A DNA stretch of 64,000 bases from Prevotella sp. (GTDB taxonomy: Bacteria > Bacteroidota > Bacteroidia > Bacteroidales > Bacteroidaceae): contig JAFZUS010000103.1 in NCBI GenBank assembly GCA_017618275.1, positions 36,593-100,592 on the forward strand, read 5' to 3'. This document shows positions 29,296 through 62,480 of the stretch, piece after piece. A program made the translations under genes and the position numbers. Each line of letters begins with the position of its first letter. Position 1 is the stretch's first letter. The notes beneath the pieces are model-generated. The model did no database searches, was not told where the DNA came from, and saw only the letters and a list, made by a program, of their open reading frames with translations.

Positions 29296-29329
29296 ATTGT
29301 ATATTTGAATTTTTTTATTTAATTTTGCG

Positions 29330-47150: not shown

Positions 47151-48635
47151 CTATTTCAGCTTGCGGATGATGGCCGGTCGTATCTTCGACAGACCAAGCG
47201 CCACGCGACATTTCTCACTGAACACCTCATAGTCGGGCGACGTATCGAGCGTTTTAAGGTCGTCAGCCGTCGGAAAAATGTAAAAGGCTCCATTATACAG
47301 CCCAAGGTATTCCGTGCGCTCTAAGACGGGTTTTATGGCTCCCTGATGCTCATTCACCAACTGTTGCCATAGCTCTGCCTTCACACCAGGCTCTAATGGC
47401 TCTGGCTCCGGCTGGAGTTCCTGCTCGGTAAACAGGTTGTATTGTTTCTCCTGCTCAATCCGTTTGCGCTCATCTTCCAGCTGCTTATCCTTGATCCACG
47501 TCGATAGCAACGTTACGATATACTCAGCCACATGGTCGGGCTGCTTCTTCTCTACGGCCCGCTCCACCCCATCGTAGGCATAATCCTTGAAGTCCTCAAA
47601 CCATTCGTCCTGTACCTCCTTCAGCAGCTCTACCATTTCATAGGGCTTCAGGTCGGTGTACTTCGTGGTGAGCGACGTGATGAGACTCTGCTCCTGGTTG
47701 TGCCGTTGCTTTCGCCATGCCCGTTCGATGCCCAATGGCCCAGGCACCAAGGTAAACTCAATGTGTGACGGATTACCCTTCAGACGGCCATCCTTACGCA
47801 ATGGCTCGTAGGTGAAGGAAAAGTCTATCTTGCTATCCTTCGACAGTTGATCCATTTCCAATCGTGAGGGCTCCAGTATCAACGACTTCACCTTACTATA
47901 TTTATGGAAGGGGTTATCCTGTGGTTTGGCACCGTCGTGCGTCAGCAAATACGACTGGTCATCAATGCCCAGAAACTCGCAGAACTGCGGATAGTCCACC
48001 TCCTTACGTCCACTTTCGCGGAAGGTAGAGAGGTAGATATAGATACGCGGTGTGCGCTGCTTCTTAGCCATCTGGCCAATCTTTGCTACGTGGTCGGTAT
48101 AGCCCTTATCCATCGACAGGAAATCATTCACATTCTCCTTATCCATCTTGATACGGATTTTGCCGGTACGCAGTCCTGTGCTCTCGTTCGTTACCATGGT
48201 GATACGCGAGAACAGGTTGGCAAAGGTGTACTCGGTCTTGGTACCAGACTTCGTTTCAATCTTCCGGAGATAGCCCATGCGTAGCGTCAGCAAATCTTTC
48301 AGTGCGTCCACCAATTCCGGATAGTGACCAGGCGTTACGCCCAGGTCTTTGGCATCTATCTCAAACTCCAGATTGGTATTCATTTCCTCCTCGGCAAACA
48401 AGGGGAGCCAAAGCTGCTCACCAGGTTTGTGTGCGTCGGCACTCTTGATGATACGATCCTGCAAGTGGTCGAGCACACCCAGCAATACCCTTTGGTGCAT
48501 CGTCGAGAAGTCGCCAGACACCTGAGCAAACACACGAGGGTTATACAACCACTGTTGGTCGCGCAGATCCTTGATGATAGCATTGTCGCTCTTCATCAAC
48601 TGAGGCATTGTCTTTTTAACTCGTTTCTTAGCCAT
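47151..48635 (-). CDS. repA: Plasmid replication initiator, Rep_3 type
   Basis: 494 residues. The protein has the tandem winged-helix plan of iteron-binding initiators: a first domain around YPELVDALKDLLTLRMGYLR and TFANLFSRITM, a second around TPRIYIYLSTFRESGRKEVDYPQFCEFL (shown here as IYIYLSTFRESG and DYPQFCEFLGI), then a Glu-rich C-terminal extension and a final globular part. It should bind the iterons in front of and behind its own gene to open the origin and limit copy number. With ParA it marks this phage as an extrachromosomal replicon. Its own promoter lies among the iterons, so autoregulation is likely. Confidence 0.9.
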   Translation of the reverse strand: MAKKRVKKTMPQLMKSDNAIIKDLRDQQWLYNPRVFAQVSGDFSTMHQRVLLGVLDHLQDRIIKSADAHKPGEQLWLPLFAEEEMNTNLEFEIDAKDLGVTPGHYPELVDALKDLLTLRMGYLRKIETKSGTKTEYTFANLFSRITMVTNESTGLRTGKIRIKMDKENVNDFLSMDKGYTDHVAKIGQMAKKQRTPRIYIYLSTFRESGRKEVDYPQFCEFLGIDDQSYLLTHDGAKPQDNPFHKYSKVKSLILEPSRLEMDQLSKDSKIDFSFTYEPLRKDGRLKGNPSHIEFTLVPGPLGIERAWRKQRHNQEQSLITSLTTKYTDLKPYEMVELLKEVQDEWFEDFKDYAYDGVERAVEKKQPDHVAEYIVTLLSTWIKDKQLEDERKRIEQEKQYNLFTEQELQPEPEPLEPGVKAELWQQLVNEHQGAIKPVLERTEYLGLYNGAFYIFPTADDLKTLDTSPDYEVFSEKCRVALGLSKIRPAIIRKLK

Positions 48636-48647
48636 AATATTTATTTT

Positions 48648-49045
48648 CGTTACGGAGTTTTACCCCTAAATCATTTCGTTACGGGATTTTACCCCGAAAG
48701 TTACCTATTTTATCCCCTTTGGGCCAAATCGGTTACGGAGTTTTACCCCGAAAGTTACCGAATTTAACCCCTTAACCTATCGGAAACCCTTTGTATATCG
48801 TGGTTTCAGGTTCCCTATAAATATATAAATATACTTTATAAACGTCATAATTGAACTTCTATATATCTTATTATAAGAAAATTATAGTATTTCAGCCGTT
48901 TAGGGGTAAAACTCCGTAACGGTTTGCACCATTTAGGGGTAAAACTCCGTAACGTAGGGGGTAAAACTTGGTAACGGATTGCCTATTTCCTAAAATTCTG
49001 TGATTTCGCACAAACCTTATATTTAGGGGTAATTCTCGGTAACGG
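48648..49045. other. Iteron origin of replication (candidate oriV)
   Basis: Copies of a 23-24 bp iteron with core TTTAGGGGTAAAACTCCGTA lie in two opposed sets. Reverse copies start at 48648, 48677 and 48731, with decayed ones near 48700 and 48754. Forward copies start at about 48899, 48932, 48955 and 49022. Between the sets (48810-48895) is a strongly AT-rich stretch of TATA-type sequence, a good unwinding element. Another iteron sits past repA at 47111. The layout is that of Rep_3 plasmid origins with repA adjacent. Confidence 0.88.
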
Positions 49046-49079: not shown

Positions 49080-49418
49080 TTAACCATGAACCTTCAGGTA
49101 TTCTTCTATTGCCTGGAGCACGATGTCACCAATAGAGAGGCTATTACCCTCCTGCTGGCTCTGCATCTTGATCCGGTTCAGCTGCTCGTACATGGCGAAG
49201 GGAATGCGCGTCTGCACATTCTTCACGCCCTGCTGTGAGTACTGCGAGAAAACACCCGTAGGCTTGGTGCCCTTTGGCAGTTGAGAGTTGACATCAGCCC
49301 TCTGCCCTCTTACTTCTTCCTTATTCATGCTCTCCATCATGGCCTCGTGTTCCTGAATGGCAGGCGAACCAGCCACGATACTCTTTTTCTTATTCGGTTT
49401 CTTAAATGAGTTTGGCAT
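49080..49418 (-). CDS. Ribbon-helix-helix partition or regulator protein (ParG-like candidate)
   Basis: 112 residues. The basic N-terminal 70 residues are disordered; the last 45 (VQTRIPFAMYEQLNRIKM, SLSIGDIVLQAIEEYLK) form a ribbon-helix-helix. Small RHH proteins next to ParA (37 bases upstream here) act as the centromere-binding partner in type Ib partition. It lies right at the edge of the iteron origin. The phased arrays at 55.1 and 57.4 kb are candidate binding sites. Confidence 0.78.
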   Translation of the reverse strand: MPNSFKKPNKKKSIVAGSPAIQEHEAMMESMNKEEVRGQRADVNSQLPKGTKPTGVFSQYSQQGVKNVQTRIPFAMYEQLNRIKMQSQQEGNSLSIGDIVLQAIEEYLKVHG

Positions 49419-49455: not shown

Positions 49456-50322
49456 TTACTTTTCTTCTGTGGTCAGAAGTTCAGAGATAAATTCATCGTA
49501 GTCCTGAGCTGCCGTGCAGTCCGGCGCATAGTCGAAGATGTCCTGATGCTGGAACTGGCTTTCACCTACCTTCACACACTGACGGATGCGCGTCTGGAAC
49601 ATGTTGGCATCGTAGGTGTCGCGTAAAAACTCCGAGGTCTCGCGGGCCAACTTCGTGCGCTCATCGGCCATCACTATCAGGAGGCCACGCATGGTCAGGT
49701 CGTGGTTTAGTTTGCGCTTAACATTGCGGTAAGCCTCTATCATGCGTCCTATACCGTCCACACTGAGCGAACCCAGCTGCACCGGTATAATGACACCCGT
49801 AGCCGCTCCGAGGGCGTTAAACGTAAGTTCTGACAGAGCGGGCGCACAGTCTATCAATACATAGTCGAACAGATCTTCCACGTAGTCCTCTGCCTCACGA
49901 CTGATAGCGTCGGCACCCATATACAGGTTATCCATATCCAGGATATCGTTGCCAAAGAGCGATGCCAGCACCAACTTCGACTGCATCTGACGATGAAGGT
50001 CTGGGTCGATGTCCGACAGTTGGGGCGATGCAGGCACGTAGAAGAGACCCTGCGGATTGCGGTACACCGGCAGATGGTTGTTGTCGCCATCACGTAGCGC
50101 GTCGGCCACGGTCAGCGTCGAGTGCTTCTGCTCATGGTACTGCTTCATCTTATCACGCCATCCTAAGAGCGATGAGAGATTACCCTGCGGGTCGAGGTCG
50201 ATGCAGAGGATGCGTAGCGACGGGTCGCGACGGAGCAATCCTGCTGCCACGTTCTGAACGGTAGTGGTCTTGGCCACCCCACCCTTGTTATTCGCAAAAG
50301 CGATGATTTCTTTCAGTTTCAT
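49456..50322 (-). CDS. parA: ParA partition ATPase
   Basis: 288 residues. FANNKGGVAKTTTVQN is the deviant Walker A with the signature lysine near residue 14; ILCIDLDPQGNLSSLL is motif A', and YVLIDCAPALSELTFN is Walker B. ParA uses ATP-driven, nucleoid-bound gradients to move DNA copies apart. It stands just upstream of the RHH gene and the RepA origin, and no ParB with a KorB fold is seen, in line with a small-partner system. Confidence 0.95.
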   Translation of the reverse strand: MKLKEIIAFANNKGGVAKTTTVQNVAAGLLRRDPSLRILCIDLDPQGNLSSLLGWRDKMKQYHEQKHSTLTVADALRDGDNNHLPVYRNPQGLFYVPASPQLSDIDPDLHRQMQSKLVLASLFGNDILDMDNLYMGADAISREAEDYVEDLFDYVLIDCAPALSELTFNALGAATGVIIPVQLGSLSVDGIGRMIEAYRNVKRKLNHDLTMRGLLIVMADERTKLARETSEFLRDTYDANMFQTRIRQCVKVGESQFQHQDIFDYAPDCTAAQDYDEFISELLTTEEK

Positions 50323-50349: not shown

Positions 50350-51183
50350 TTAATGTTTCTTACCATAATTCTCCGGCGCAATGCCCTGCGAAGCATTCTC
50401 AGCCTGAGCACGTTTCAGTTCCTTAATCATACCATAGTCGGCAGAGCCCTGCGGGGCCTTCGAGTAGAGTAGTTCCGGACGGCGCGACGGGTCGATAGTC
50501 GTATGGCCCAATCCACGCTTCTTCGGCATCCAGGGACGCAGTTCGGGGTCGTATTCCTCCTGCCATTCATCCACCGGCTGCATATTGATCATGCGAGTGG
50601 CACGCTCGCGGCGCTCCTTCGAGTTCCAGATGTTCTGCGCCCACTCAGCCATCGAGTTGAGCGTTTCCAACACACCATGCTCACCCGTCCACTCGATGTC
50701 ATCCCATTCGTTCTGTCCCAGCGCATCGAGACAGCCCAGAAGTTCCAGATAAGCATTCAGTCCAGGCACCTTCACAATCACTCGTGGCTGGTCAAACTCT
50801 TCGTCGTACACCCTACCCTGCCCTTCTATCAGCTCTTGGATAGTAATGCCCTGACGCTGTGCCTCACGCTCATTCTCGAAAGCCTGGTTGCGCTGTTCCA
50901 GCCATGCCAGTCGAGCGGTCTCTTCACGTTCGGCGATGGCCCAACTACGCTCATTGTCGTGGGCGCATCCCAGATTGGTACGAAACGAATGCACCTTGCA
51001 TACCAAATGCGGGGCATGCGTGCTGATGATACAATCGCCCAGGTCGTTGCGGGCCTGAATCTTCGTCACGATAAACGGCCCGTGAAACTGCATACCCGTC
51101 ATAAAGTGCTGCGAGTACTGCGATAGCCCACCGTCCCAAATCTCCAACGGTGCTACCTGATTTTCTCTTCTTTCCTTTGCCAT
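50350..51183 (-). CDS. Hypothetical protein
   Basis: 277 residues. A strand-rich start (GPFIVTKIQARNDLGDCII, HLVCKVHSF) is followed by helices with many Glu/Arg and a Gly/Arg-rich C-terminal tail. No family recognised. Its place between parA and the ligase suggests a replicon-maintenance role. Confidence 0.6.
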   Translation of the reverse strand: MAKERRENQVAPLEIWDGGLSQYSQHFMTGMQFHGPFIVTKIQARNDLGDCIISTHAPHLVCKVHSFRTNLGCAHDNERSWAIAEREETARLAWLEQRNQAFENEREAQRQGITIQELIEGQGRVYDEEFDQPRVIVKVPGLNAYLELLGCLDALGQNEWDDIEWTGEHGVLETLNSMAEWAQNIWNSKERRERATRMINMQPVDEWQEEYDPELRPWMPKKRGLGHTTIDPSRRPELLYSKAPQGSADYGMIKELKRAQAENASQGIAPENYGKKH

Positions 51184-52884: not shown

Positions 52885-52908
52885 GGTGAATAATCTCGTA
52901 ACTTATAA
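52885..52908 (-). promoter_or_regulatory. Class B leader element, copy 1 (before ligA)
   Basis: Minus strand TTATAAG, 13 bases, CACC, then a small stem AAGT/ACTT and ACAAAAA before the ATG, 33 bases on. This copy has one base less spacing than the others. Confidence 0.65.
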
Positions 52909-53169
52909 TTAGAATATGCCTAAGTAAATATAACCGCCACCATCGCAATAAACGAAGCAATCAAGTTTTGACTTCTTACAGATGTCGAGTGTCCGCTTAT
53001 CCTTGCGATTCAGCAATATATCGTACTCTTCATCAGTCCACTCTCCGATATTACTCTTGCTAATGCGACCTTCCCACCCTGGTAATAAGAACTTTTCAGT
53101 ATTAGCATAAGGGTGAGCCTCGCACTCAGCGATAACCTCTTGTAACCTCTTATAAAAATCTTCCTTCAT
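52909..53169 (-). CDS. Small hypothetical protein
   Basis: 86 residues from MKEDFYKRLQEVIAE; the longer frame runs into the leader. Ends CFVYCDGGGYIYLGIF, a strand pair with glycines. A class B element precedes the start. No family recognised. Confidence 0.6.
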   Translation of the reverse strand: MKEDFYKRLQEVIAECEAHPYANTEKFLLPGWEGRISKSNIGEWTDEEYDILLNRKDKRTLDICKKSKLDCFVYCDGGGYIYLGIF

Positions 53170-53198
53170 ATCTCTATAATTTAATGAATTAATAAACT

Positions 53199-53222
53199 GA
53201 TGAATTTTCTCGTATGCTATAA
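53199..53222 (-). promoter_or_regulatory. Class B leader element, copy 2
   Basis: TTATAG (53217-53222), 14 bases, CATC (53199-53202) on the minus strand, 30 bases before the ATG at 53169. It lies across the stop of the next gene upstream. Confidence 0.65.
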
Positions 53223-53224
53223 CA

Positions 53225-54088
53225 TTAATCTGTAACCATGCAATCAAGAGCCAGGGTGTAATTCCATGTGTCATAGCTAAAATGATCCTCCATACGGTCT
53301 GCGACCTCTGGATCTGTCAAATAGGGATAACCCTCAGAACAGAAAATAAACTCATTCTCTCCAAGTTCCCTACCCTCTACCTGGTCTGCAAGTTCACGCC
53401 ATTTCTCTGCTTCCTCAGCGTCATCCATTTCGTCAGCATACTCGCGCAACTCATCGGCATACTCTTTCCAACTCTGCCACCAATGCAAGTTATCGTTATG
53501 GCTATCCATAAAACTGGCACAGTCGTATAACTCGTAAGCATTGCCCTGAGATTGCCACAACTGCCAACCATCTTTGCGGCGAAGTGAAACCAACTCCACA
53601 CCGTACAAGTCGGCAATAGCCTGGGCACCCTCAATCGTAGTGTCACCACCATTCAGGAGCACACAACCACGAAGGCAGCTGGGATAACCATTCATACCCT
53701 CGGTAATCTCGGCAGCCTCGAAAACGTAGTCATCACTAATCATATCGCGAAGCTCGTAGCTGTTCACGTAATTATCTGGATTCACCATAACCTGAAGGCG
53801 GGAATCACCCTTGCTAAACTCGTAGAAATCAAACGAAGAATCGAACTGGTCGTACTCGGCCCACTCATTAAAGAGCACACCGAAATCATCGCCATCGACA
53901 TCGAGATCTTCAACCATAGAGAAGTCATCCAGCAAGTGCATACGCAACTCGCGGAAATCCTCGTCAGGGCCAAACAGACCAAAACCTGAACCACCTTGGC
54001 CACCTGAAATGTAAGCCACACAATCGCCCTGATTGAGCGTATTAATAATCGCATTTACGACCTTATAGAAATCTGATGAACGTTTCAT
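53225..54088 (-). CDS. Acidic hypothetical protein
   Basis: 287 residues and very rich in Asp/Glu (DDFSMVEDLDVDGDDFGV, EEAEKWRELADQVEG). An N-terminal Gly stretch (YISGGQGGSGFGLFGPDED) stands out. Such charge is seen in DNA-mimic anti-restriction and anti-defence proteins; it is also common in other phage proteins, so this is only a suggestion. It belongs to a cluster of acidic proteins in this region. Confidence 0.65.
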   Translation of the reverse strand: MKRSSDFYKVVNAIINTLNQGDCVAYISGGQGGSGFGLFGPDEDFRELRMHLLDDFSMVEDLDVDGDDFGVLFNEWAEYDQFDSSFDFYEFSKGDSRLQVMVNPDNYVNSYELRDMISDDYVFEAAEITEGMNGYPSCLRGCVLLNGGDTTIEGAQAIADLYGVELVSLRRKDGWQLWQSQGNAYELYDCASFMDSHNDNLHWWQSWKEYADELREYADEMDDAEEAEKWRELADQVEGRELGENEFIFCSEGYPYLTDPEVADRMEDHFSYDTWNYTLALDCMVTD

Positions 54089-54146
54089 AATCTTATCTCC
54101 TATCTTTAATCAATTAATATCTATCTTTAATTAGTAATTGCCAAAG

Positions 54147-54524
54147 TTATACGTTATACTTTTCCATGAATGCACTCCAGAAGTCGAAGGGATTACCAGA
54201 GCATGCGTAGCGGAAAAGACGGGCCAAATCCTGACAGCGCAGGAACTCGGCACGGTTATCTTCATCGGGCTCCTCGCCAATATATTCGAGCCAGTCCAGA
54301 TAGTTGGGGTACTGCTGACCTTCGCCAGCTGCTGCAAGTTCGCAAGTCACCACCAGGGGAAGGCTGTTGTCAACATCCATAGGATCGATGGGTGCTGATG
54401 CACCAGGCAGTAATACGGTGCCATTGTCACCAGTCAGAATCACACCACCCTTTGCATCGTGAGTGGCAGTCAACTTCTGACCGTCTTTTAATTCAACTCT
54501 GATAGTTCTGAAATTCGTTGCCAT
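54147..54524 (-). CDS. Hypothetical protein behind a class A promoter
   Basis: 125 residues. The first half is beta-rich (TIRVELKDGQKLTATHD, GVILTGDNGTVLLPG), the second acidic and helical. No family recognised. It is the first gene after the class A unit at 54.54-54.62 kb. Confidence 0.6.
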   Translation of the reverse strand: MATNFRTIRVELKDGQKLTATHDAKGGVILTGDNGTVLLPGASAPIDPMDVDNSLPLVVTCELAAAGEGQQYPNYLDWLEYIGEEPDEDNRAEFLRCQDLARLFRYACSGNPFDFWSAFMEKYNV

Positions 54525-54535
54525 AATCTTAAAGT

Positions 54536-54615
54536 TTTGTGAGGCTCATCACCTCGGTTACACATATTATTTATTTATCTGCTGCAAAGATACAAACTTA
54601 TTTTGAATTGACAAA
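54536..54615 (-). promoter_or_regulatory. Class A unit 1: promoter plus hairpin leader
   Basis: TTTG (54612-54615), exactly 19 bases, TATCTTTG (54585-54592), then TAACCG-AGG...CCT-CACAAAA (54536-54560) close to the ATG. The stem is GAGG with CCTC. CTTGAAAGTTTTCGG lies upstream, as in the other copies. Confidence 0.85.
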
Positions 54616-54711
54616 ATAAAATAGTATTTATTTTCGCTTTTTCTTGAAAGTTTTCGGGTTTCTTTACAAATTCATTAATTTATGGACTCATAATTACATG
54701 AATTGATGAAA

Positions 54712-55068
54712 TTATGGTTTCACCAATTCATGCTCCTTAGCCCACCACTCGGCACCAGCTTTCAGGCACTCACGCAGTATCACCGACACTTGGCGGTAGT
54801 TCTGGGCCGTAATCTCGATAGTCGGATGTTCTGGCGTACCACCACCGGCCTGTATCGCCACGAAGTCCTGACGGCCTGGAACCTGAGCCACTGCCCCACC
54901 CCTCCGGCGAAGCACATCCAGAATCATGTCGCGCTGGCCTTCAGGTGTCGGCACTATCTGGATGTTCATCCAGGGATATTCGTTAGCTGTCAACAGAGGG
55001 AAGGTGTGGCCATGCTCACCCTTCGCCTCCGATACCGTATATGTATATTCAAATTTCTCCGTTGTCAC
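54712..55068 (-). CDS. Hypothetical protein with GTG start
   Basis: 118 residues. It starts at GTG (55066-55068), directly after the 10-bp array. Strand-rich N-terminus (EKFEYTYTVSEAKGE), then a Gly-rich loop and helices. No family recognised. The array upstream may control it. Confidence 0.6.
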   Translation of the reverse strand: MTTEKFEYTYTVSEAKGEHGHTFPLLTANEYPWMNIQIVPTPEGQRDMILDVLRRRGGAVAQVPGRQDFVAIQAGGGTPEHPTIEITAQNYRQVSVILRECLKAGAEWWAKEHELVKP

Positions 55069-55069
55069 T

Positions 55070-55168
55070 TATACCTTTTTATACCTTTTCTTTATACCAT
55101 TCTATACCTTCTTATACCTTTTTATACCGATTTATACCGATTTATACCGATTTATACCGATTTATGCC
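55070..55168. repeat. Ten TATACC sites phased at 10 bp
   Basis: TATACC (one TATGCC) begins at 55070, 55080, 55093, 55103, 55113, 55123, 55133, 55143, 55153 and 55163, so spacing is 10 bp but for a single 13. On the minus strand this is GGTATAAA. One site per helical turn puts all on the same face of DNA, as for a cooperative binding array or a centromere. Confidence 0.88.
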
Positions 55169-55172
55169 GGTT

Positions 55173-55955
55173 TTAATCGTCGTCGGCACACTCAGGCGGC
55201 AATGCCTGGTCGTAGCGCACTGAGAAGATGTATGGTCGCGGCCCTTTGTCGTGAGCTCCTTTGCAACGATACTCCAGGACGTAAGGATTAATAGCCGAAT
55301 CACAGCCACGCAGCGAATAGCGATGCACATAGTCGTAGCCCACCACGATAGCCCTGACACGCTTCTTACTGTAGCCACGCTGCTCATGGGCTATCTCCTG
55401 CCCTATCTGATACATGCTGCTGGGTGCCAGATCTTCCAGTTGGAAGTCAACACTCGTATTTTCCAATTCAGGAACCGGCAGATCCAGATATTTGCGCCAT
55501 GCTGTTGGCAGCACATCGAAGGTGTAGGCATCAATCTCCTTCAGCATGAAGTGAGCGGCATCAGCGTGCTCCCTGTTGGCCCAGACTATCAAGTTGTGGT
55601 AAACATACCGCTGCAACTTCTTCGGGGCCTTCTGAGCCATTTGCCAGGCACGCCACGCAGTCGATATATATTCCGGACGGCCTGCCAACAGTCCCAGCTG
55701 CTTACCGGTCGTATTATCCTTCCAGAGGTCGGCACGACCATTACGGGTGCCATAGTTCAAACGATTGGCCATTTGGCGGTCGAAGCTCTTCATGCTGGCC
55801 TCTATCTCATTCCAGCCATTCTTACCCTCAGACGGGAACTGATAGGCACCAGTGGCCGTTGTCACCTTCACCAGGTCGATACCGTCAGAGAAAGCTCCCT
55901 TTTGCACCTTCACTTTACCGGCCTGCAACACCTTCACAATATTTTCTTTTGCCAT
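55173..55955 (-). CDS. Hypothetical protein
   Basis: 260 residues, well composed, with a basic N-terminal part (MAKENIVKVLQAGKVKVQK), GRADLWKDNTTGKQLGLL, a helical middle and strand-rich end (RAIVVGYDYVHRYSLRG). No family recognised. It is just upstream of the phased array. Confidence 0.6.
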   Translation of the reverse strand: MAKENIVKVLQAGKVKVQKGAFSDGIDLVKVTTATGAYQFPSEGKNGWNEIEASMKSFDRQMANRLNYGTRNGRADLWKDNTTGKQLGLLAGRPEYISTAWRAWQMAQKAPKKLQRYVYHNLIVWANREHADAAHFMLKEIDAYTFDVLPTAWRKYLDLPVPELENTSVDFQLEDLAPSSMYQIGQEIAHEQRGYSKKRVRAIVVGYDYVHRYSLRGCDSAINPYVLEYRCKGAHDKGPRPYIFSVRYDQALPPECADDD

Positions 55956-55975
55956 AGTCTTAATGAATTAATGAA

Positions 55976-56254
55976 TTAATGAAAACAAACGAAATGCACC
56001 CCTAATCCAGGATGGATGTCAGAGGCACGAGCGCACTCCGTTTTCTTACTGACTTCCGACACACCACTCAGGAACTTTTCACGACCCAGGACACGAATGG
56101 CCTGTTTTGCCTTGATAGGCTGTAAACCATAGCCATTTGTCAAAGTCATCATGGTCTCGTTACACACCTCCTGAAGCTGCTCCATTTCGCTCTCCTGATG
56201 TCCCATGCTCAACAGGCACTCAACATCTTCTGCTGTAAAAACGTATGGTTTCAT
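55976..56254 (-). CDS. Small hypothetical protein
   Basis: 92 residues, helical, acidic first half, six Cys and six His spread over the chain (CARASDIHPGLGVHFVCFH at the end). No clear metal motif or family. AT-rich ATGAATTAATGA spacers flank it. Confidence 0.55.
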   Translation of the reverse strand: MKPYVFTAEDVECLLSMGHQESEMEQLQEVCNETMMTLTNGYGLQPIKAKQAIRVLGREKFLSGVSEVSKKTECARASDIHPGLGVHFVCFH

Positions 56255-56300
56255 ATCCTTCTGAATTAATGAATTTATGAATTAATGAAACTGGCCACTA

Positions 56301-57197
56301 TCATGCAGCCAGCCTTTCGAGATCTTGAACAGTGTGGCCCTGCTGGGCGGCCCAGAACAACAGGCGCATGCCATCGTTCTCAGCATACTTACTTACACAG
56401 CCGTCGTGCTTTGCATCCAGGCACTTCGTACTGCTTTCATGCAGCCAGGGGAAACCTCCGAACTTAGAAACCAGGTTCCAATATATCTCATTCCATTTGT
56501 TGTCGTTACGATAGCAACGCACCAGCTCTTCGCAGTCGAAGCTATCCAGTTGGTCGTTCTGCTCCTCCAACATGTCGTAGGTCTCAGCGGCCTCCGTGTT
56601 CTCCCAGAGCCATTCGCCACAGTCCTCATAAAACTCCTCAGCAAGGCCAATGCCATTCTCATTCAAGAGGCACAGAGTCAGATAGGCACCAATGCAACGC
56701 TCCTCGTCGTCAAACTCCTCGATGTCGTCGAAGTCCTGGGGCATGAATGAACAGAAACCGGAATGGCTGTACCAATGCTCTTCGATATACTTCTCAAACT
56801 TCTCATCCTTCCGGAACTCAGCCAGGTACTTGTGCATCAGCTCGCGGAAGTTGGCAGCCATATTCACGGTGAAATACAGACAGTCGCTCTCGAAGTTATA
56901 ATATTGCGGGGAATGAATCTTTTCCACGTCGATACTCTCCAGGCCATACTTCTTCATCATAGGCACCACGTTTTCGTTGATGAAGTTGGTGGCACACTTT
57001 ACGATCTCTTTACGCCAGGTGTCATTATCCACCACGGTATAGCTGAATGGGTGCTCATCGTCACACATGCAGTTGCTCATGTCCTCTTCATAGCGGGTAG
57101 GGGACAGAAGGCTCTCATACATTCCTACATATACGCAGGGAAAAAGATTGCTACTGATTGCGAAGCTCTCCAGATTGTTGTTGTTTGTTGTTTCCAT
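56301..57197 (-). CDS. Acidic hypothetical protein
   Basis: 298 residues with heavy Asp/Glu content (PQDFDDIEEFDDEERCIG, EFYEDCGEWLWENTE). Residues 30-120 are globular with Cys pairs (SNCMCDDEHPF); the end includes LLFWAAQQGHTVQDLERL. It leads a class A unit at 57.2 kb. No family recognised; an anti-defence role is possible because of charge and place. Confidence 0.65.
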   Translation of the reverse strand: METTNNNNLESFAISSNLFPCVYVGMYESLLSPTRYEEDMSNCMCDDEHPFSYTVVDNDTWRKEIVKCATNFINENVVPMMKKYGLESIDVEKIHSPQYYNFESDCLYFTVNMAANFRELMHKYLAEFRKDEKFEKYIEEHWYSHSGFCSFMPQDFDDIEEFDDEERCIGAYLTLCLLNENGIGLAEEFYEDCGEWLWENTEAAETYDMLEEQNDQLDSFDCEELVRCYRNDNKWNEIYWNLVSKFGGFPWLHESSTKCLDAKHDGCVSKYAENDGMRLLFWAAQQGHTVQDLERLAA

Positions 57198-57208
57198 AAC
57201 TCTTTTTG

Positions 57209-57290
57209 TTTTGTGAGGCCAGGGCCTCGATTATACATTAAATTAACTTATCACGCTGCAAAGGTACAAAATAAAAATTAAACTTCCAAA
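57209..57290 (-). promoter_or_regulatory. Class A unit 2: promoter plus hairpin leader
   Basis: TTTG (57287-57290), 20 bases, TACCTTTG (57259-57266), then TAATCG-AGGCC-ctg-GGCCT-CACAAAA (57209-57235). The stem differs from unit 1 yet pairs fully. Confidence 0.85.
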
Positions 57291-57350
57291 CATTTTTCGA
57301 AAAATTTTCAAGAAAAAGCGAAAAAAGTTTGTTTTTGCCACATTTTTTAG

Positions 57351-57399
57351 GTGTAATCAGGTGTAAAGATGTGTAATTTGCAGGTGTAAAGAGGTGTAA
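57351..57399. repeat. Five GTGTAA sites phased at 10 bp
   Basis: GTGTAA begins at 57351, 57361, 57371, 57384 and 57394: steps of 10, 10, 13, 10. Most sites read AGGTGTAA. The word and the odd 13-bp step match the array at 55.1 kb (GGTATAA on the other strand), so one protein may bind both. Confidence 0.85.
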
Positions 57400-57407
57400 A
57401 CGAAAAT

Positions 57408-57433
57408 CCCCACCAGCCACAAGACTGATGGGG
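57408..57433 (-). terminator. Stem-loop after the 138-residue gene
   Basis: CCCCA (57408-57412) and TGGGG (57429-57433), extended inward by CA/TG after one mismatch, followed on the minus strand by ATTTTC. A likely terminator for the 57460-57876 gene. Confidence 0.65.
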
Positions 57434-57459
57434 TAGGAGAGAAACAAGTTATTTATATA

Positions 57460-57876
57460 TCAGAAGAGATCTTCGCCTTCTTCAACTTCTTCGACTTCAT
57501 CTTTGATCTTCTGGATAAGTTCAGCTGTCAACTCCATTTCACTATTCCAGTTCTCATCAGATGTAACAGTCGGACACTGCGAAAGAATAGCCCTAACACC
57601 TTCAGACACCATACGAACCAGGAATAACTCGACATTCGAAAATGGATTAGTGTTCTGGCCAAAGTTAGCCTTCTCGTAATCGAAATACTCACCAGCTTCG
57701 CCAATCCATTCTATCAAGTACTGCTCGGCCTTCGCAGTGGAATAAGTAAACGTACCATCGGCACACATACCTTCAGTCAGCTCGATACTCAGGTCACACA
57801 TATATACTACATTCCCTTCGTAGTTTTCGAGGTTATCCAGGATGTAATTTTTGCAATATTCAAAGAAAGATTCCAT
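57460..57876 (-). CDS. Acidic hypothetical protein
   Basis: 138 residues, mostly helical, strongly acidic, ending KIKDEVEEVEEGEDLF. Class B copy precedes its start by 31 bases. No family recognised. Confidence 0.6.
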   Translation of the reverse strand: MESFFEYCKNYILDNLENYEGNVVYMCDLSIELTEGMCADGTFTYSTAKAEQYLIEWIGEAGEYFDYEKANFGQNTNPFSNVELFLVRMVSEGVRAILSQCPTVTSDENWNSEMELTAELIQKIKDEVEEVEEGEDLF

Positions 57877-57906
57877 AACTTAATGAATTTATGAATTTAT
57901 GAATTT

Positions 57907-57930
57907 TGTGATTTCGCAGACAGTCTATAA
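57907..57930 (-). promoter_or_regulatory. Class B leader element, copy 3
   Basis: TTATAG (57925-57930), 14 bases, CACA (57907-57910) on the minus strand, 31 bases before the ATG at 57876. Confidence 0.7.
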
Positions 57931-57935
57931 AGAGA

Positions 57936-58541
57936 TCATTTCTTCTGACGCTTCTCACTGATATTGTAAGCCTTCATAAGACGATGAATGTCAAAAGGCG
58001 AAACACTGATATAGGCCAGCTGCTTCCACTTCTCAGCAATCTTCTCACATTTGCGATATTCCGCTGTAAGTACTGACTGATAATTGGCTCCAAACGTTTC
58101 CACAAAGTCACCCTTCTCAGTGTTACATTTACGCTGTCCGGTTGCCTTATCCAGATACCACTCGCGACGCTCACCATGAATGGTAATGGTAAACTTTTCG
58201 CGGCTACCATCACGATCCCAATCACTCAAATAGTCCTCACGGCCCATACTCTTCAGGTCTGTCAGATCGGCATGGATATACAGGTTATAGCAACGCTTCC
58301 AGTCGGTTTTACTACGCATGTAGAAGGCATCCTGGCGATTCAGATTCAACTTTGCAGCCTTCTTTACCTCGAAGGGGAAATAGATAACGATATAGTGATT
58401 ATCTGTACCAAACCAATTCAGGCTGGCAATCTCTTTGCCATCACGATAGAAAATAATATGATCGATCTCCAGTCCATTCATAAAGAACGGATTATAATGT
58501 GCCGACGTATAGAGTCGAGTCTTGATGTCTGTTGTGTTCAT
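57936..58541 (-). CDS. Hypothetical protein
   Basis: 201 residues from MNTTDIKTRLYTSAHYN; a longer frame reads through the leader and is rejected. Strand-rich (GLEIDHIIFYRDGKEIASL, YIVIYFPFEVKK), with KFTITIHGERREWYLD and a helical basic C-terminus. Some small Bacteroidales mobile-element proteins start alike, but I cannot name the family. Confidence 0.6.
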   Translation of the reverse strand: MNTTDIKTRLYTSAHYNPFFMNGLEIDHIIFYRDGKEIASLNWFGTDNHYIVIYFPFEVKKAAKLNLNRQDAFYMRSKTDWKRCYNLYIHADLTDLKSMGREDYLSDWDRDGSREKFTITIHGERREWYLDKATGQRKCNTEKGDFVETFGANYQSVLTAEYRKCEKIAEKWKQLAYISVSPFDIHRLMKAYNISEKRQKK

Positions 58542-58572
58542 AATGCTAATGAATTTATGAATTAATGAAAAC

Positions 58573-58596
58573 TCTGAAAATTCGCAGGGCCTATAA
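58573..58596 (-). promoter_or_regulatory. Class B leader element, copy 4
   Basis: TTATAG (58591-58596), 14 bases, CAGA (58573-58576), 32 bases before the ATG at 58541. The TAG of this box is also the stop codon of the upstream gene. GGCC arms flank it. Confidence 0.65.
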
Positions 58597-58968
58597 AAGG
58601 CCATTCCTGCGAAGTATCTCATCATCCAACTCCCAGACGCTAACAGGGCTTTCAGTATGGCCCCAGCTCAAAACGTCCAGAACATGTTTATCGCTATAAT
58701 TGCTGATATTCATAAACTGTGTCTCGCCATACTCACGGGCACCATTCGTATAGAGCTCATCAACACGAACCAGGGCACCTTCCATACATTCCACACCAAA
58801 GCCATTATCATTAATGGCATCGCGGATCTGCTCAGGGGTAGGGTAGGAATCCTGATTTAAACGAACTGGCTCCATGGGTATTGTACCCTCACCACCACCC
58901 CAAAGAGCTAAAGCGGTCATGCCTACAATCTGGAATCCTATCAACTGTACTGTCAAAGTCTTTTTCAT
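58591..58968 (-). CDS. Small protein with N-terminal hydrophobic segment
   Basis: 125 residues. MKKTLTVQLIGFQIVGMTALALWGGG looks like a signal or membrane segment (shown here as LTVQLIGFQIVGMTALAL); the rest is acidic (TPEQIRDAINDNGFG, WELDDEIL). So it may be exported or membrane-bound. A class B element precedes it. No family recognised. Confidence 0.6.
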   Translation of the reverse strand: MKKTLTVQLIGFQIVGMTALALWGGGEGTIPMEPVRLNQDSYPTPEQIRDAINDNGFGVECMEGALVRVDELYTNGAREYGETQFMNISNYSDKHVLDVLSWGHTESPVSVWELDDEILRRNGLL

Positions 58969-59000
58969 AATGCTATACGTTTTTTGTAATTTCTTAAATT

Positions 59001-59024
59001 GGTGAAAAATCTCATGCGCTATAA
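59001..59024 (-). promoter_or_regulatory. Class B leader element, copy 5
   Basis: TTATAG (59019-59024), 14 bases, CACC (59001-59004), then stem AATTT/AAATT and ACAAAAA; 33 bases to the ATG at 58968. Confidence 0.75.
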
Positions 59025-59042
59025 TAGGGTAGGGCCATCACT

Positions 59043-59936
59043 TCAGGCAACGTCCTGAAGTAATGGATCCTCAAACAACACACACAAGTCGAATGGGTAG
59101 CCCAGACGGTCAGTAATCTTCGTAATGTGGAAGAACTCGAACAGATATTTTTGAGCCTTTTCCTGAGCCTCCTGAAGCGTCTGAACATCTGTAATGACCA
59201 TGCCTATATGTGGAAAGCTCACCTTAAAAGATGTGGAGCCCAAAATCTCACTTGGATAGTTTATTTCGCATACTTTTTTGCGGCCCAGACGTACTTCCCA
59301 ATAGGGAATGGACTCACCTTTGCAAGAATAAGCCTTTTTCTCACATACAGCCGTCTCACCTTCTGGAACCGGTGATTTCGCAGCCTCGCTATAAACAGGC
59401 TTTTCCTTCAGTTCACAATGATCTGGCGTGCATGTCAGTTCAAACGACTCACCATTACCAATATCACAACGGCAACGAACAGCCATTCCCTGAACGTCCA
59501 GCACTTCACTGTTACCATATCCACGACACTTCACTTTTGCGCCTGGAACAAGCCACGACGGAGCCAATGGCTGATTCTCTAATGGTGCATAATAGAGCAT
59601 AACAGCGGCCAACTGATGTGCGCCACCTGAACAGAAATACACCTGGGTACGTCCCACGGACTCTATCACATATTTCTGGCCGTCCTGATGTGCTATCACG
59701 GTGCCACGCTTACACCATACCGGCAGAGCCTTTTTCTTGGCCTCAGTCGCCTTTAATTCGCCAGCACGGGCAGGAACAAGGTCGCCACCCTTCAGGCACA
59801 ATATAACACGATCGTGAGCGTCGCTACAGCCTTTAATCTCAACAATGGCCCCACGCCATTCAACTAACTGGCCCTCATGGATATGGTACATGTCGTTAGT
59901 GTTCTTATAATTCTGAATGCTATTTTTCGTTTTCAT
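59043..59936 (-). CDS. Hypothetical beta-rich protein
   Basis: 297 residues made of several small beta units (GQLVEWRGAIVEIKGCSD, KRGTVIAHQDGQKYVIES, GAKVKCRGYGNSEVLDVQG), perhaps SH3-like repeats, with nine Cys. The final 90 residues are a mixed domain. No family recognised. A class B element lies 41 bases ahead of its start. Confidence 0.6.
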   Translation of the reverse strand: MKTKNSIQNYKNTNDMYHIHEGQLVEWRGAIVEIKGCSDAHDRVILCLKGGDLVPARAGELKATEAKKKALPVWCKRGTVIAHQDGQKYVIESVGRTQVYFCSGGAHQLAAVMLYYAPLENQPLAPSWLVPGAKVKCRGYGNSEVLDVQGMAVRCRCDIGNGESFELTCTPDHCELKEKPVYSEAAKSPVPEGETAVCEKKAYSCKGESIPYWEVRLGRKKVCEINYPSEILGSTSFKVSFPHIGMVITDVQTLQEAQEKAQKYLFEFFHITKITDRLGYPFDLCVLFEDPLLQDVA

Positions 59937-59976
59937 AATGTTTGCTTTTTAAATGAATTAATGAATTTATGAATTT

Positions 59977-60000
59977 GGTGAAATTCTGGAGGCCCTATAA
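59977..60000 (-). promoter_or_regulatory. Class B leader element, copy 6
   Basis: TTATAG (59995-60000), 14 bases, CACC (59977-59980). The box sits in the loop of a stem CTGGAGGC/GCCTCCAG, so it may also fold as a terminator-like hairpin. Confidence 0.75.
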
Positions 60001-60027
60001 AGAGCCTCCAGGGAAATAGATTAGGGG

Positions 60028-60438
60028 CTATCTTTCCTGACCTTCTTCACGGATAGCGTTTTCGAGATCAGTATCACAGTGAACATAACTCCAGGAGGTG
60101 CCGAAATGGTCAACACACAAAACGTATAATTCCAGCGTATCGCTATAAGTGAACAGGAGGCCGAAATGCTCTTCAAGAAACGCCACATCTTCGTCGCTGC
60201 AATTTGTCAGATACCACTGGAAAATTTCGCGGTCACAGTCCGGATGGTGCAGCTCATACGACGGTGTATCTTTTTCGTCGTCGTCGTTATCTTCGTCGTC
60301 GTCCTGATCGTCGTCGTCACGATACAGACTGAAACGCATATTATCGAACACTGAAGGATCAATCTCTGGAATGTTATTACACAGAATAAAATCGTTGTGG
60401 AGCCAGTTAACGGCCACGGAATAATTTGTTGAATACAT
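60028..60438 (-). CDS. Highly acidic hypothetical protein
   Basis: 136 residues with an Asp run (RDDDDQDDDEDNDDDEKD, residues 36-53) and a globular acidic second half (DVAFLEEHFGLLFTY, LYVLCVDHFGTSWSYV). Candidate DNA mimic by charge only. Class B element upstream. Confidence 0.6.
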   Translation of the reverse strand: MYSTNYSVAVNWLHNDFILCNNIPEIDPSVFDNMRFSLYRDDDDQDDDEDNDDDEKDTPSYELHHPDCDREIFQWYLTNCSDEDVAFLEEHFGLLFTYSDTLELYVLCVDHFGTSWSYVHCDTDLENAIREEGQER

Positions 60439-60469
60439 AATAAATGAATTTTTGTAATTTTATAAAATT

Positions 60470-60493
60470 GGTGAATAATCGCAGATGCTATAA
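60470..60493 (-). promoter_or_regulatory. Class B leader element, copy 7
   Basis: TTATAG (60488-60493), 14 bases, CACC (60470-60473), stem AATTT/AAATT around TAT, ACAAAAA; 32 bases to the ATG at 60438. Confidence 0.78.
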
Positions 60494-60501
60494 AGGGCCT
60501 A

Positions 60502-60663
60502 TTACATGTACGTCGTAAAACGGTAATTCATAAAGATATAGTAAACAGCCCAGATAGAGAAGGCCAACAGGAGCCAGGAGGTCAGACGGGGCCAGCGTTC
60601 TAACAGACTGGCCAGCCGGTTAACAAGTCGTACCTGATAACGATAAAATGCAACAGTACTCAT
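60502..60663 (-). CDS. 53-residue single-pass membrane protein
   Basis: MSTVAFYRYQVRLVNRLAS, a basic amphipathic start, then a membrane segment (WLLLAFSIWAVYYIFM, about 30-45). Fits tightly between its neighbours (12-base gap upstream). Function unknown; toxin-like or membrane-altering roles cannot be excluded. Confidence 0.6.
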   Translation of the reverse strand: MSTVAFYRYQVRLVNRLASLLERWPRLTSWLLLAFSIWAVYYIFMNYRFTTYM

Positions 60664-60675
60664 AATAGGGTAGAA

Positions 60676-60885
60676 TTAATGTTTATCAACGAAGAAAATG
60701 TAGCTGCAATCTAGCGACACATAGCCAGTATTAAAGAGATTCGAAAATTCTTCAGGAGTCGAAATTTCGCACGTATCACCGCCAGTACTTTTGTCTGTTT
60801 GGGCCAGATCTAAAAGTTCTTCAGGGCTCATGGCCTTCAGATCGTCCAGGCCGTACACATTTGAGTCGAAAGCTAAAACTAACAT
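60676..60885 (-). CDS. Small acidic protein
   Basis: 69 residues. MLVLAFDSNVYGLDDLKAM then an acidic helix and a strand end (YVSLDCSYIFFVDKH). Class B element 22 bases before the start. No family recognised. Confidence 0.6.
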   Translation of the reverse strand: MLVLAFDSNVYGLDDLKAMSPEELLDLAQTDKSTGGDTCEISTPEEFSNLFNTGYVSLDCSYIFFVDKH

Positions 60886-60906
60886 AATTTCTTGATTTTA
60901 AAAATT

Positions 60907-60930
60907 GGTGAATAATTGTGGAGTCTATAA
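60907..60930 (-). promoter_or_regulatory. Class B leader element, copy 8
   Basis: TTATAG (60925-60930), 14 bases, CACC (60907-60910). Distance to the ATG at 60885 is 22, shorter than the others, and the small stem is weak. Confidence 0.72.
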
Positions 60931-60939
60931 AGGCCGGTT

Positions 60940-61641
60940 TTAGGCGGCCTTTTTGTCAGCGGGCCAGTAAAAGCCCTCGCCATTAGATGCACAACAACCC
61001 TCCAGGCAATAGGGGGCCACGGCCTCCAAACAGTCGTCGATATAGTCTGTTATTTCCTTCAGTTCTTTTTCCATACGTTTGCGAAGTTTAGGCACTAACA
61101 TTTTAGCCAGTCCAGGGCTATTAATATCACGCCATTCATACCATGAGTAATTATAGGAGCCCTTCAGGGCCTCGAAAAGATCATTATCTGTAATATACTC
61201 CAGCGCGTCCGTATCATAGCCCAGAACGTCTTTATATTGCCAGTCCAGCTTAAAACCTTCATAGTAACCGGCCTCGAAATTTATAGATACTTCTAAATCA
61301 AAATCAATACCGGCAAAACGGAATGAACGCGACACGGTACAAATTTCGTCACCGTCGTAAACGTGATTTTTGTCAAGATCTATAAAGTCCACCTTCAGGC
61401 CCTTTTCCTTATTTGCCTCCATGAGCTTTTCTTCAAGCCATTCCAGATAGTACCGTTTTTCATCCTGGTACCATTCATCATAGATACATGAATCATAGAA
61501 TTTTACGTTATTTACTTCATCTTCGGACTCCAGGCCCCAGATCTCCTTATTTTCATCTACATAGGACTCAAAATCACTGTGCTCTAAAAAAGCATAAAGG
61601 TGACGTGAATTGTGGCTGCAATTAAAATTAGGTGCTGACAT
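60940..61641 (-). CDS. Acidic hypothetical protein
   Basis: 233 residues, many Asp/Glu and Tyr (EHSDFESYVDENKEIWG, YDSCIYDEWYQDEKRYY), with a central strand region (DGDEICTVSRSFRFAG, DFDLEVSINFEAGYY) and C-terminal CLEGCCASNGEG. Possible DNA mimic by charge; otherwise unknown. Class B element 32 bases upstream. Confidence 0.62.
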   Translation of the reverse strand: MSAPNFNCSHNSRHLYAFLEHSDFESYVDENKEIWGLESEDEVNNVKFYDSCIYDEWYQDEKRYYLEWLEEKLMEANKEKGLKVDFIDLDKNHVYDGDEICTVSRSFRFAGIDFDLEVSINFEAGYYEGFKLDWQYKDVLGYDTDALEYITDNDLFEALKGSYNYSWYEWRDINSPGLAKMLVPKLRKRMEKELKEITDYIDDCLEAVAPYCLEGCCASNGEGFYWPADKKAA

Positions 61642-61672
61642 AACTGTAATTTTTTGTAAGTTCTATAAACTT

Positions 61673-61696
61673 GGTGAATAATTTCGTTAACTATAA
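61673..61696 (-). promoter_or_regulatory. Class B leader element, copy 9
   Basis: TTATAG (61691-61696), 14 bases, CACC (61673-61676), stem AAGTT/AACTT, ACAAAAA; 32 bases to the ATG at 61641. The stem bases differ from copies 5 and 7 but still pair. Confidence 0.78.
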
Positions 61697-61705
61697 AGAA
61701 GTGAT

Positions 61706-61963
61706 TTAGAAGGGCCGTTCGCCATAACGATACGCCTGAATACTATTTAATACTCGTTCGTATGTACTGTAACCGGCACCCGTCGTAAAATAGGCCGTAT
61801 GATAGGCCGACGACTGATAAAACGCGTCCAGGCGATCCAGCCACAATTTAAAACACTGTAGGGCCTTAATATAGCGTAAATTATTATCGACGCTATAAAG
61901 ACGCTTTTCACATTCTTCTAACTTGTTTAGAATGTAGTCCAGGGAAAATTTCTTTTTTGCCAT
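61706..61963 (-). CDS. Small hypothetical protein
   Basis: 85 residues, MAKKKFSLDYILNKLEECE, helical, then a Tyr/Ser-rich part (SSAYHTAYFTTGAGYSTYE). It is the first gene behind class A unit 3. No family recognised. Confidence 0.6.
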   Translation of the reverse strand: MAKKKFSLDYILNKLEECEKRLYSVDNNLRYIKALQCFKLWLDRLDAFYQSSAYHTAYFTTGAGYSTYERVLNSIQAYRYGERPF

Positions 61964-61974
61964 AACTAAATTTT

Positions 61975-62048
61975 TTTGTGTGGCCTCGCCACGGTTACTA
62001 ATTACTTTTGATGTTGCAAAGGTACAACTTTTATTTTAAACCACCAAA
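61975..62048 (-). promoter_or_regulatory. Class A unit 3: promoter plus hairpin leader
   Basis: TTTG (62045-62048), 20 bases, TACCTTTG (62017-62024), then TAACCG-TGGC-gag-GCCA-CACAAAA (61975-61998). Upstream is TTTTCAAGAAAAA-like sequence shared with other units. Confidence 0.85.
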
Positions 62049-62127
62049 TAAAAAGAGAAAAATTTTCAAGAAAAAACGAAAGTTTTCGGAATAATTTACA
62101 AAATTGATACTTTTGAGCTCAAAAATC

Positions 62128-62151
62128 AGTGAAATAACGCACAAACTATAA
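62128..62151 (-). promoter_or_regulatory. Class B leader element, copy 10
   Basis: TTATAG (62146-62151), 14 bases, CACT (62128-62131). It lies upstream of class A unit 3 and not just before a gene, the only copy so placed; it may mark a lost gene. Confidence 0.55.
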
Positions 62152-62202
62152 AAAGCCTGATTTTTCAGTGATTCTATAACGAAAGTATAATATATATAGG
62201 TA

Positions 62203-62456
62203 CGGGCACCCCTGGCACCCTTCAGGCATACAGACGGGCACACGTCCAGAACTGGCACCCCTGGCACATCTGGCACCCGTCCGGACTCATGGAGGCACAC
62301 ACGGGCACCCCTGGCACCCTTCAGGCATACAGACGGGCACACGTCCAGAACTGGCACCCCTGGCACATCTGGCACCCGTCCGGACACATGGAGGCACACA
62401 CGGGCACCCCTGGCACCCTTCAGGCCGTCAGACGGGCACACGGGCACCCCTGGCAC
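62203..62456. repeat. 99-bp tandem repeat array, first locus
   Basis: Units start at 62203, 62302 and 62401 (last one partial). Each unit holds GGCACCCCTGGCAC twice and other GGCAC words. The GC-rich units stand out from AT-rich flanks. Reading frames through them are repetitive and are not taken as genes. Confidence 0.9.
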
Positions 62457-62480
62457 AAAAAAGGGCACCACGGCAAAATA

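Follow-up and report, generated by a model that had tools for sequence, protein, structure and literature searches.

Dispersed and Oriented Class B Sites in a Group of Prevotella Phages: Putative Operators of the Early Gene Cluster

We analyzed a stretch of 64,000 nucleotides (the window), which comprises bases 36593–100592 of a 100,592-bp phage contig (JAFZUS010000103.1) inside a 3.6-Mb Prevotella sp. genome bin (GCA_017618275.1). A bipartite element, termed the class B site, in which TTATAG is followed after 14 bp by CA, is repeated on its minus strand. The copies form a real, conserved set of sites specific to one group of gut and rumen phages, and judged by their sequences they are most likely dispersed operators. 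We consider it probable that they are the orientation-locked binding sites of a phage DNA-binding regulator of the gene cluster in which they lie, which appears to be the early region.

Ten class B sites were found in the window, all on the minus strand (the higher coordinate of each range is the start of the hexamer). The copy at the operon head (62128..62151), found in pattern and matrix scans, lies approximately 100 nt 5′ of a promoter with the box TACCTTTG. Six copies carry CACC: 61673..61696 (31 nt before the ATG of the gene at 60940–61641), 60907..60930 (21 nt before the ATG of the gene at 60676–60885), 60470..60493 (31 nt before ATG and, with 31.3 bits in the matrix described below, the top score of the contig), 59977..60000 (40 nt before ATG), 59001..59024 (32 nt), and 52885..52908 (32 nt before the ATG of an NAD-dependent DNA ligase). 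Three copies carry CAGA (58573..58596, 31 nt before the ATG at 58541), CACA (57907..57930, 30 nt before ATG, with the inner CTGCGA displaced by 2 bp), and CATC (53199..53222, 29 nt before the ATG at 53169). Nine of the ten end 21–40 nt 5′ of an ATG (seven measured, those at 58596 and 53222 taken by eye), where an earlier note on this DNA had counted eight at 30–41 bp. The head copy is the exception, at 164 nt from ATG with the promoter in between. The hexamer is TTATAG in nine copies and TTATAA in one (52908), and the spacing to CA is 14 bp in all ten. The ten copies with CACC in six that the earlier note described are therefore present, except that its single spacing of 13 bp was probably site 52908 read in another register.

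The motif is far more frequent than in shuffled sequence. TTATAG-N14-CA occurs 16 times in the window, compared with 1.70 expected (100 shuffles, largest value 6), and TTATAG-N14-CACC with at most one mismatch occurs 15 times, compared with 3.28 expected (largest shuffle 7). Twelve of the 16 matches are on the minus strand in or just beyond the region, two are elsewhere on that strand, and two are on the plus strand. When the spacing between TTATAR and TCAY was left free in the early region of the window, 11 pairs were found at spacing 13, and none of the other spacings up to 30 had more than 4. The exact CACC form is found 12 times in the bin as a whole, seven of them in the phage contig, and the reversed pattern 8 times; the host genome is thus not enriched.

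Eight phage contigs were scanned with a matrix built from the ten sites of the window, at a main cut of 17 bits. These contain 10 (the training set), 9, 12, 12, 9, 13, 6, and 6 sites, that is 77, of which 67 are beyond the window. All 77 are on one strand per contig, which is the coding strand of their gene cluster. Column-permuted matrices gave means of 0.08–0.23 matches per contig and Markov sequences 0–0.20. The 77 sites are not independent, because G301–G303 are closely related to the window. The stronger test comes from the more distant contigs (G307, G308, contig 204 of Prevotella sp. MGM1 in G305, and contig 92 of MAG57 in G306), of which G307 and G308 are again mutually close, and there 34 of 34 sites are on one strand. 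At a lower cut of 15.5 bits, one borderline match in G308 is antisense. The sites that reach 17 bits cluster within 4–14 kb per contig, with one outlier in G306 (37291), and the late and plus-strand gene blocks of the window have none. G301 and G302 retain the ligase site but lack a counterpart of the gene that precedes it in the window. No comparable site set was found on Segatella plasmids that carry parA together with a small gene of the ribbon-helix-helix type (best scores 15.0, 15.0, and 14.6 bits), in a scan that covered all of NZ_CP137558.1 and the first 50 of 59 kb of NZ_CP085934.1, with NZ_CP137560.1 outside its scope. Contig 35 of G359 (20 of 25 kb scanned) has one match of 18.0 bits. 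The earlier note had read the fixed spacing as a sign of recognition by protein or RNA and had proposed a scan of related phages against shuffled sequence. That scan, now run, supports the motif. The element is phage-specific, and its fixed spacing does point to a macromolecule that recognizes it.

The refined site reads TTATAR-N3-CTGNGA-N4-TCACMG-NTTT, of which TTATAR-N13-TCA is the rigid part. Over 60 distinct sites the conserved block is TTATAR-NNY-NTGNGA-WWWW-TCAC-MR-NTTT. These sites were obtained from 109 matches in 13 records by a 75% identity cut on 80-mers, with matches closer than 20 or 60 bases to the end of a record excluded. Because 56 sites went into the second matrix, the 60-site set is partly circular. 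TTATAR-N13-TCA is nearly constant over the 60 sites, a constancy that is partly imposed because the matrix selects that spacing. The inner block is not rigid: a simple pattern places a CTGNGA-like sequence at position 10 in 25 of the 60 sites, at position 12 in four, and at neither in 31. The column symmetry between CTGNGA and TCACMG is the best of 46 centres (0.523; next 0.470). The inner arms have 0.503 paired cells over the 60 sites compared with a shuffle mean of 0.523 (981 of 1000 shuffles reach the observed value), and pairing of the outer arms is likewise not raised (0.374 compared with 0.370). Symmetry without excess pairing therefore fits the half-sites of a protein and not an RNA stem. 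The sites are presumably bound by a protein that contacts TTATAG as well as TCAC, which lie about two turns of the helix apart.

Placement was tabulated with ATG-only gene calls and the 15.5-bit cut. Of 46 intergenic sites, 37 end 21–51 nt from the ATG that follows, and for 23 of the 46 this distance is 29–32 nt; the nine exceptions lie 3 nt (a 15.5-bit match), 12 nt, and 113–372 nt before ATG. Other copies lie inside long open reading frames (ORFs), in frames 1 and 2 within single genes: at residues 224 and 608 of a 733-residue ORF, and at residues 229, 561, and 695 of an 815-residue ORF. They read V-I-E-x-x-x-N-Q or similar in frame 1 and x-Y-S-x-x-x-x-S-Q or similar in frame 2, while the third frame would lead to a stop. 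Since two reading frames are used within single genes, the constraint acts on the nucleotides. Copies that appear in-gene through over-long ORF calls were not counted (window sites 62151, 58596, and 53222 with their G301 copy, and the head arrays of G302, G303, and G308). In the window, two of the 12 minus-strand TTATAG-N14-CA matches fall inside a gene, both below the 17-bit cut: 61362..61385 (14.8 bits; its G301 counterpart, in frame 1, has 15.6 bits) and 59371..59394 (13.8 bits, inside the gene at 59043–59936).

At the operon head, G302, G303, and G308 have three head-to-tail copies at 27-bp steps with no start codon nearby. Two head copies are found in G307 (at the extreme contig start), one in G305, and one in the window, where a degenerate second copy lies 28 bp away (62156..62179, minus strand, TTATAG-N14-CA, 12.9 bits). 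The head copies are 5′ of a TAYCTTTG promoter in six of the seven contigs inspected; in the window the −7 box TACCTTTG of this promoter is at 62017..62024 on the minus strand. The in-gene copies, the tandem copies, and the inner CTGNGA block had no place in the earlier note, which offered a promoter, an RNA processing site, or a translation switch. None of these is now the most likely explanation. A site on DNA bound by protein is favored because of the in-gene copies in two frames, the 27-bp arrays 5′ of a promoter, and the lack of covariation.

If the copies are operators, the regulator bound at the operon head would govern the entry of transcription. Bound to copies at gene junctions and inside genes, it would stall or stop host RNA polymerase during elongation, in the manner of a stoperator. 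The early genes would thereby be silent while the phage persists as an episome. A scan for terminators returned 10, compared with 7.5 expected, and makes no case for a terminator at each site.

Several observations weigh against this assignment. The head copies are approximately 90–120 bp 5′ of the −7 box and do not overlap it, which is unusual for a repressor, and contig 92 of MAG57 has no head copy in the stretch 12700–13420. The strand bias is confounded because nearly all genes of the region run one way. The position of nine of the ten window sites 21–40 nt before ATG is also predicted by a promoter or a translation element. The 60 sites used for symmetry and covariation were selected by a matrix whose training set was largely made up of them. 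Finally, no class B site was found upstream of HTH240, a regulator gene described below, in five contigs; passages of PMC6550527 and PMC9283540 describe a conserved site at rep in phages of the L5 clade.

The best candidate binders are two proteins, p112 and HTH240. The small protein p112 (49080..49418, minus strand) is encoded beside parA (49456..50322, minus strand), in a gene run that also holds a conserved protein, p277 (50350..51183, minus strand). It is found in all eight contigs and in L202; the version in G306 is divergent, has 98 residues, and was recognized by position, length, and motif. An AlphaFold model of the p112 monomer shows helices at 74–90 and 96–111 (pLDDT 84–90 for the block) after an extended stretch to which no strand is assigned, and a disordered N-terminal tail; the overall pLDDT is 66.8 and the pTM 0.35 (nine sequences). 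The Pfam families RHH_10 and 56B_RHH each match one of 11 aligned p112 members with E about 1e-3. The p112 of the window itself has no meaningful match in Pfam or NCBIfam, and its single PDB profile match (ORF56) has E 0.6. A ribbon-helix-helix fold is therefore predicted with modest confidence. HTH240 (29507..30229, plus strand), an HTH_3 regulator, is present in all eight contigs and in the record of L202, and is the sole cI-like candidate seen. Presence alone cannot separate p112 from HTH240 as the binder. Relatives of p112 were found in two of 399 family genomes and one of 393 order genomes (G000 included), and relatives of HTH240 in two of 393, of which one is a weak match. Back-to-back boxes TAATTTTG and TACCTTTG overlap on opposite strands (TTTTGCGCAAAGGTA; window 29296–29506) in the gap that separates the HTH_3 gene from its divergent neighbor.

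The plasmid-type replication initiator p494 (47151..48635, minus strand; 25% identity over 303 residues to a gene annotated RepB on a Segatella plasmid) was set aside as a binder, having iteron-like repeats of its own. Direct and inverted repeats near CGTTACGGAGTTTTACCCC, 5′ of its gene (48640..49040, minus strand; by eye), are likely Rep iterons and are distinct from class B. A degenerate site of 10.0 bits (48999..49022, minus strand) lies among them, 3′ of p112.

It is possible, though we hold it to be clearly less likely than operators, that the sites are centromere-like partition sites of the ParA/p112 pair that also damp transcription, with the 27-bp head arrays as the main parS. This explanation overlaps with the operator assignment and names p112 as the binder. 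The genes for ParA, p112, and the plasmid-type Rep form one module, and the modeled pair of C-terminal helices in p112, together with the RHH_10 and 56B_RHH matches, suits a partition protein, whereas the poor profile matches of the window's own p112 do not. Many copies share the core AATCACA, a match to the omega heptad WATCACW, but at least four contiguous heptads are needed for full ParA activation by omega, according to passages of PMC9499535, and most sites here are single. A site or degenerate site lies within approximately 100 bp 3′ of p112 in six of nine phages, and a site or degenerate site lies 5′ of parA in five (G307, G308, L157, L202, and G306). Against this, G305 and L202 lack a site in the 260 bp after p112, and G303 has no more than a relic there. 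In site-bearing phages the predicted strand of p112 has the sequence VQTR(I/V)P or IQARIP; in three related elements, scanned and without a comparable site set, it is VQTYLS, VQTYIP, or VATYLN. This contrast of arginine and tyrosine can follow ancestry, and contig 35 of G359, with VQTYIP, has the 18.0-bit match. The strict orientation of the sites is also unexpected for a centromere.

A combined version, about which we are doubtful, is that one ribbon-helix-helix ParB of a phage-plasmid uses the same oriented sites in two ways: the 27-bp head array is its centromere, and the copies within and between early genes are its roadblocks. If true, the protein that keeps the dormant phage inherited would also silence its lytic genes, so that partition and immunity would be one system.

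It is unlikely that the copies act in RNA, as processing, antitermination, or RNA-binding-protein targets that separate the cistrons of a long early transcript. Such a role would suit the location of all 77 sites on the coding strand and of many just after a stop codon and before a leader. The inner arms, however, lack covariation, and two sites folded alone gave negligible energies of −0.7 and −0.1 kcal mol−1. The head copies precede the first promoter of the operon, although transcription that begins farther upstream could read through them.

It is also quite unlikely that each copy serves as a promoter of the gene that follows, used by an RNA polymerase that the phage modifies or encodes. 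The short distance to ATG, followed by A-rich leaders, is what such a promoter predicts. It does not predict three copies at 27-bp steps before a normal promoter, copies deep in long genes, or the lack of sites of at least 17 bits in the late and plus-strand blocks of the window. No RNA polymerase was recognized among the proteins scanned (many ORFs were outside the scan). Nor is class B the ordinary host promoter. The motif of Bacteroidales sigma-AB promoters is TTTG or TAnnTTTG. In agreement with the earlier note, no TAnnTTTG is seen by eye between site and ATG in the nine leaders near start codons; these phages also carry the Bacteroidales promoter, which lies at the operon head and ahead of some genes, and class B is a different element. 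A chance or compositional artefact is refuted at the level of sequence, because the shuffles, permuted matrices, reversed pattern, and host genome all speak against it, even though the intergenic leaders have an AT-rich composition and octamer repeats such as ATTCATTA occur in them.

P1 C1 and phiC31 are examples of control through multiple asymmetric operators. Operators of this kind are also ascribed to "some other phages" in a passage of PMC1934351. The closest likeness is to the stoperators of cluster A mycobacteriophages (L5, Bxb1, TipsytheTRex), which passages of PMC6550527 and PMC9283540 describe as mostly of one orientation and placed at promoters and in short intergenic gaps. Class B also consists of many asymmetric copies (6–13 per contig at 17 bits or more) in one orientation relative to transcription (77 of 77, confounded by the one-way gene order), in short intergenic gaps and near the early promoter (head copies 5′ of TAYCTTTG). 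The presence of ParA here is matched by parABS in some cluster A phages, as parts of the same two papers report. Unlike the 13-bp cluster A stoperators, class B is 24–30 bp long and bipartite, and no sequence relation is seen. Class B further differs in its strong in-gene copies, the 27-bp spacing of its head arrays, a host of the phylum Bacteroidota, and the absence of a copy at HTH240 (five contigs; if HTH240 is the repressor). No homologue of the cluster A repressor was found among the family matches of the proteins scanned, which are part of the ORFs. Class B therefore appears to resemble a stoperator set in number, orientation, and placement, and it is not counted as one because size, homology, and (if HTH240 is the repressor) a site at the repressor gene differ and binding is a prediction.

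The Start Associated Sequences (SAS) and extended SAS of cluster K mycobacteriophages also precede many unrelated non-structural genes, mostly in one orientation, and the extended SAS contains an imperfect inverted repeat (passages of PMC3203893), as class B has an inner symmetry. Unlike SAS, which the same passages place typically 3–7 bp from the start at the position of a ribosome binding site, class B is 21–40 nt away in nine of the ten window sites, and in related phages it also occurs in genes and arrays. With omega/parS of plasmid pSM19035, where the ribbon-helix-helix ParB omega also controls expression, as treated in parts of PMC9499535, the phages share ParA with a small ribbon-helix-helix protein, a core that fits WATCACW, and sites near promoters. 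Those parts describe 7–10 contiguous heptads of 7 bp, whereas class B sites are single or in two to three units of 27 bp and strictly oriented. Among 5.39 million open-access papers searched, none pairs "stoperator" with a Bacteroid- word (subscription papers and preprints were outside this scope). To our knowledge, the silencing of lytic genes in Bacteroidota phages is poorly known; if our assignment is true, dispersed and oriented roadblock control would exist in phages of another phylum. A site set across the phage group, two candidate binders, and an apparently cultured carrier (contig 204 of Prevotella sp. MGM1) make immunity and partition directly testable.

A small stem after the site, which the earlier note described in four leaders, is present (AAGTT/AACTT at 61696, AAGT/ACTT at 52908, and AATTT/AAATT at 60493 and 59024), although its folds are negligible. 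For 61696, 52908, 60493, and 59024, the RNA energies are −1.8, −1.9, 0, and −0.4 kcal mol−1, and 68, 58, 200, and 91 of 200 shuffles, respectively, fold at least as well. The stem is weak evidence for RNA structure.

A separate leader module is found behind TAYCTTTG promoters: ACC, a GC hairpin of varying sequence, ACAAAA, and ATG. In the window, GTGGC-GAG-GCCAC precedes ACAAAA at 61980..61992 (minus strand), and the module is also seen near 63690, 57215, and 54545 (minus strand). A scan for TAYCTTTG found 189 boxes on both strands of the eight contigs, duplicates between contigs included, and 19 distinct leaders with a stem, an ACAAA-like run, and ATG. In 17 of the 19 a GC-rich stem of 4–6 bp and varying sequence is followed by ACAAA or ATAAAAC, with ACC before the stem in 16 of the 17; the other two (G307 61030 and G305 75748) look like chance. 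Four hairpins of the window have energies of −7.0 to −8.4 kcal mol−1, with 5, 12, 24, and 28 of 200 shuffles as good. Within the bin, a restricted form of the module is confined to the phage contig, where it is found twice; IMG/VR has it in 19 stretches. None of 11 loci found through the hairpin, one of which (L218) is a fragment of a relative, has a class B match of at least 16 bits, so class B is not general to phages with this hairpin. The CACC-AAGTT..AACTT-ACAAAAA arrangement of class B looks like a weak form of the module that overlaps the end of the site. For Prevotella bryantii, passages of PMC3155529 report no functional Shine–Dalgarno interaction and no inhibition of translation by a strong structure 20 bp upstream of the start. 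An octamer repeat, ATTCATTA/ATTCATAA on the sense strand, is an alternative spacer before the start codon in many leaders (window 55960–55983, 56262–56289, 57883–57906, 59953–59976, 63235–63268, and 63838–63866).

The contig belongs to a tailed phage, as indicated by family matches of its window proteins: tail tape measure protein, head maturation protease, DNA polymerase processivity factor, reverse transcriptase (of a phage family), the NAD-dependent DNA ligase, ParA, and the HTH_3 regulator. The group probably consists of phage-plasmids, because ParA, the small ribbon-helix-helix gene, and the plasmid-type Rep adjoin as on a Segatella plasmid. An identical ParA is encoded on a contig of the rumen genome RUG443 (uncultured Prevotellaceae), and relatives of the window are present in IMG/VR, in Prevotella sp. 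MGM1 (contig 204, 90 kb), and in one Bacteroidaceae genome. A strict pattern scan of IMG/VR gave 17 stretches. Five of these (L134, L135, L136, L138, and L141), which come from four phage records, are related to the window, and the remaining 12 resemble coding sequence of other viruses (no ORF-by-ORF check). A looser pattern gave at least 120 stretches and was set aside as too unspecific. The protein of the gene at 59043–59936 was found in one sister phage in IMG/VR, only in its own genome among 301 family genomes, and in none of the phage records; that of 56301–57197 had no match in sequence searches.

Further features of the phage were observed. The window encodes a beta-ketoacyl synthase (12907–14151) and a protein with a Tad2-like (Thoeris anti-defence 2) domain (6831–7562). 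A reverse transcriptase gene (phrog_1423) in L010:4007–5386 lies near a tail protein gene and is perhaps part of a diversity-generating retroelement. A tandem 10-bp repeat (TTATACCGAT/TTATACCTTT, 8–9 copies) is found at window 55069–55173, just 5′ of an ORF with a GTG start. A GC-rich 99-bp repeat (GGGCACCCCTGGCACC...) occurs at window 62202–62483, at 63868–64000, and at the contig start. It is thus present at both contig ends and before the early cluster, and may mark a genome end or an assembly break.

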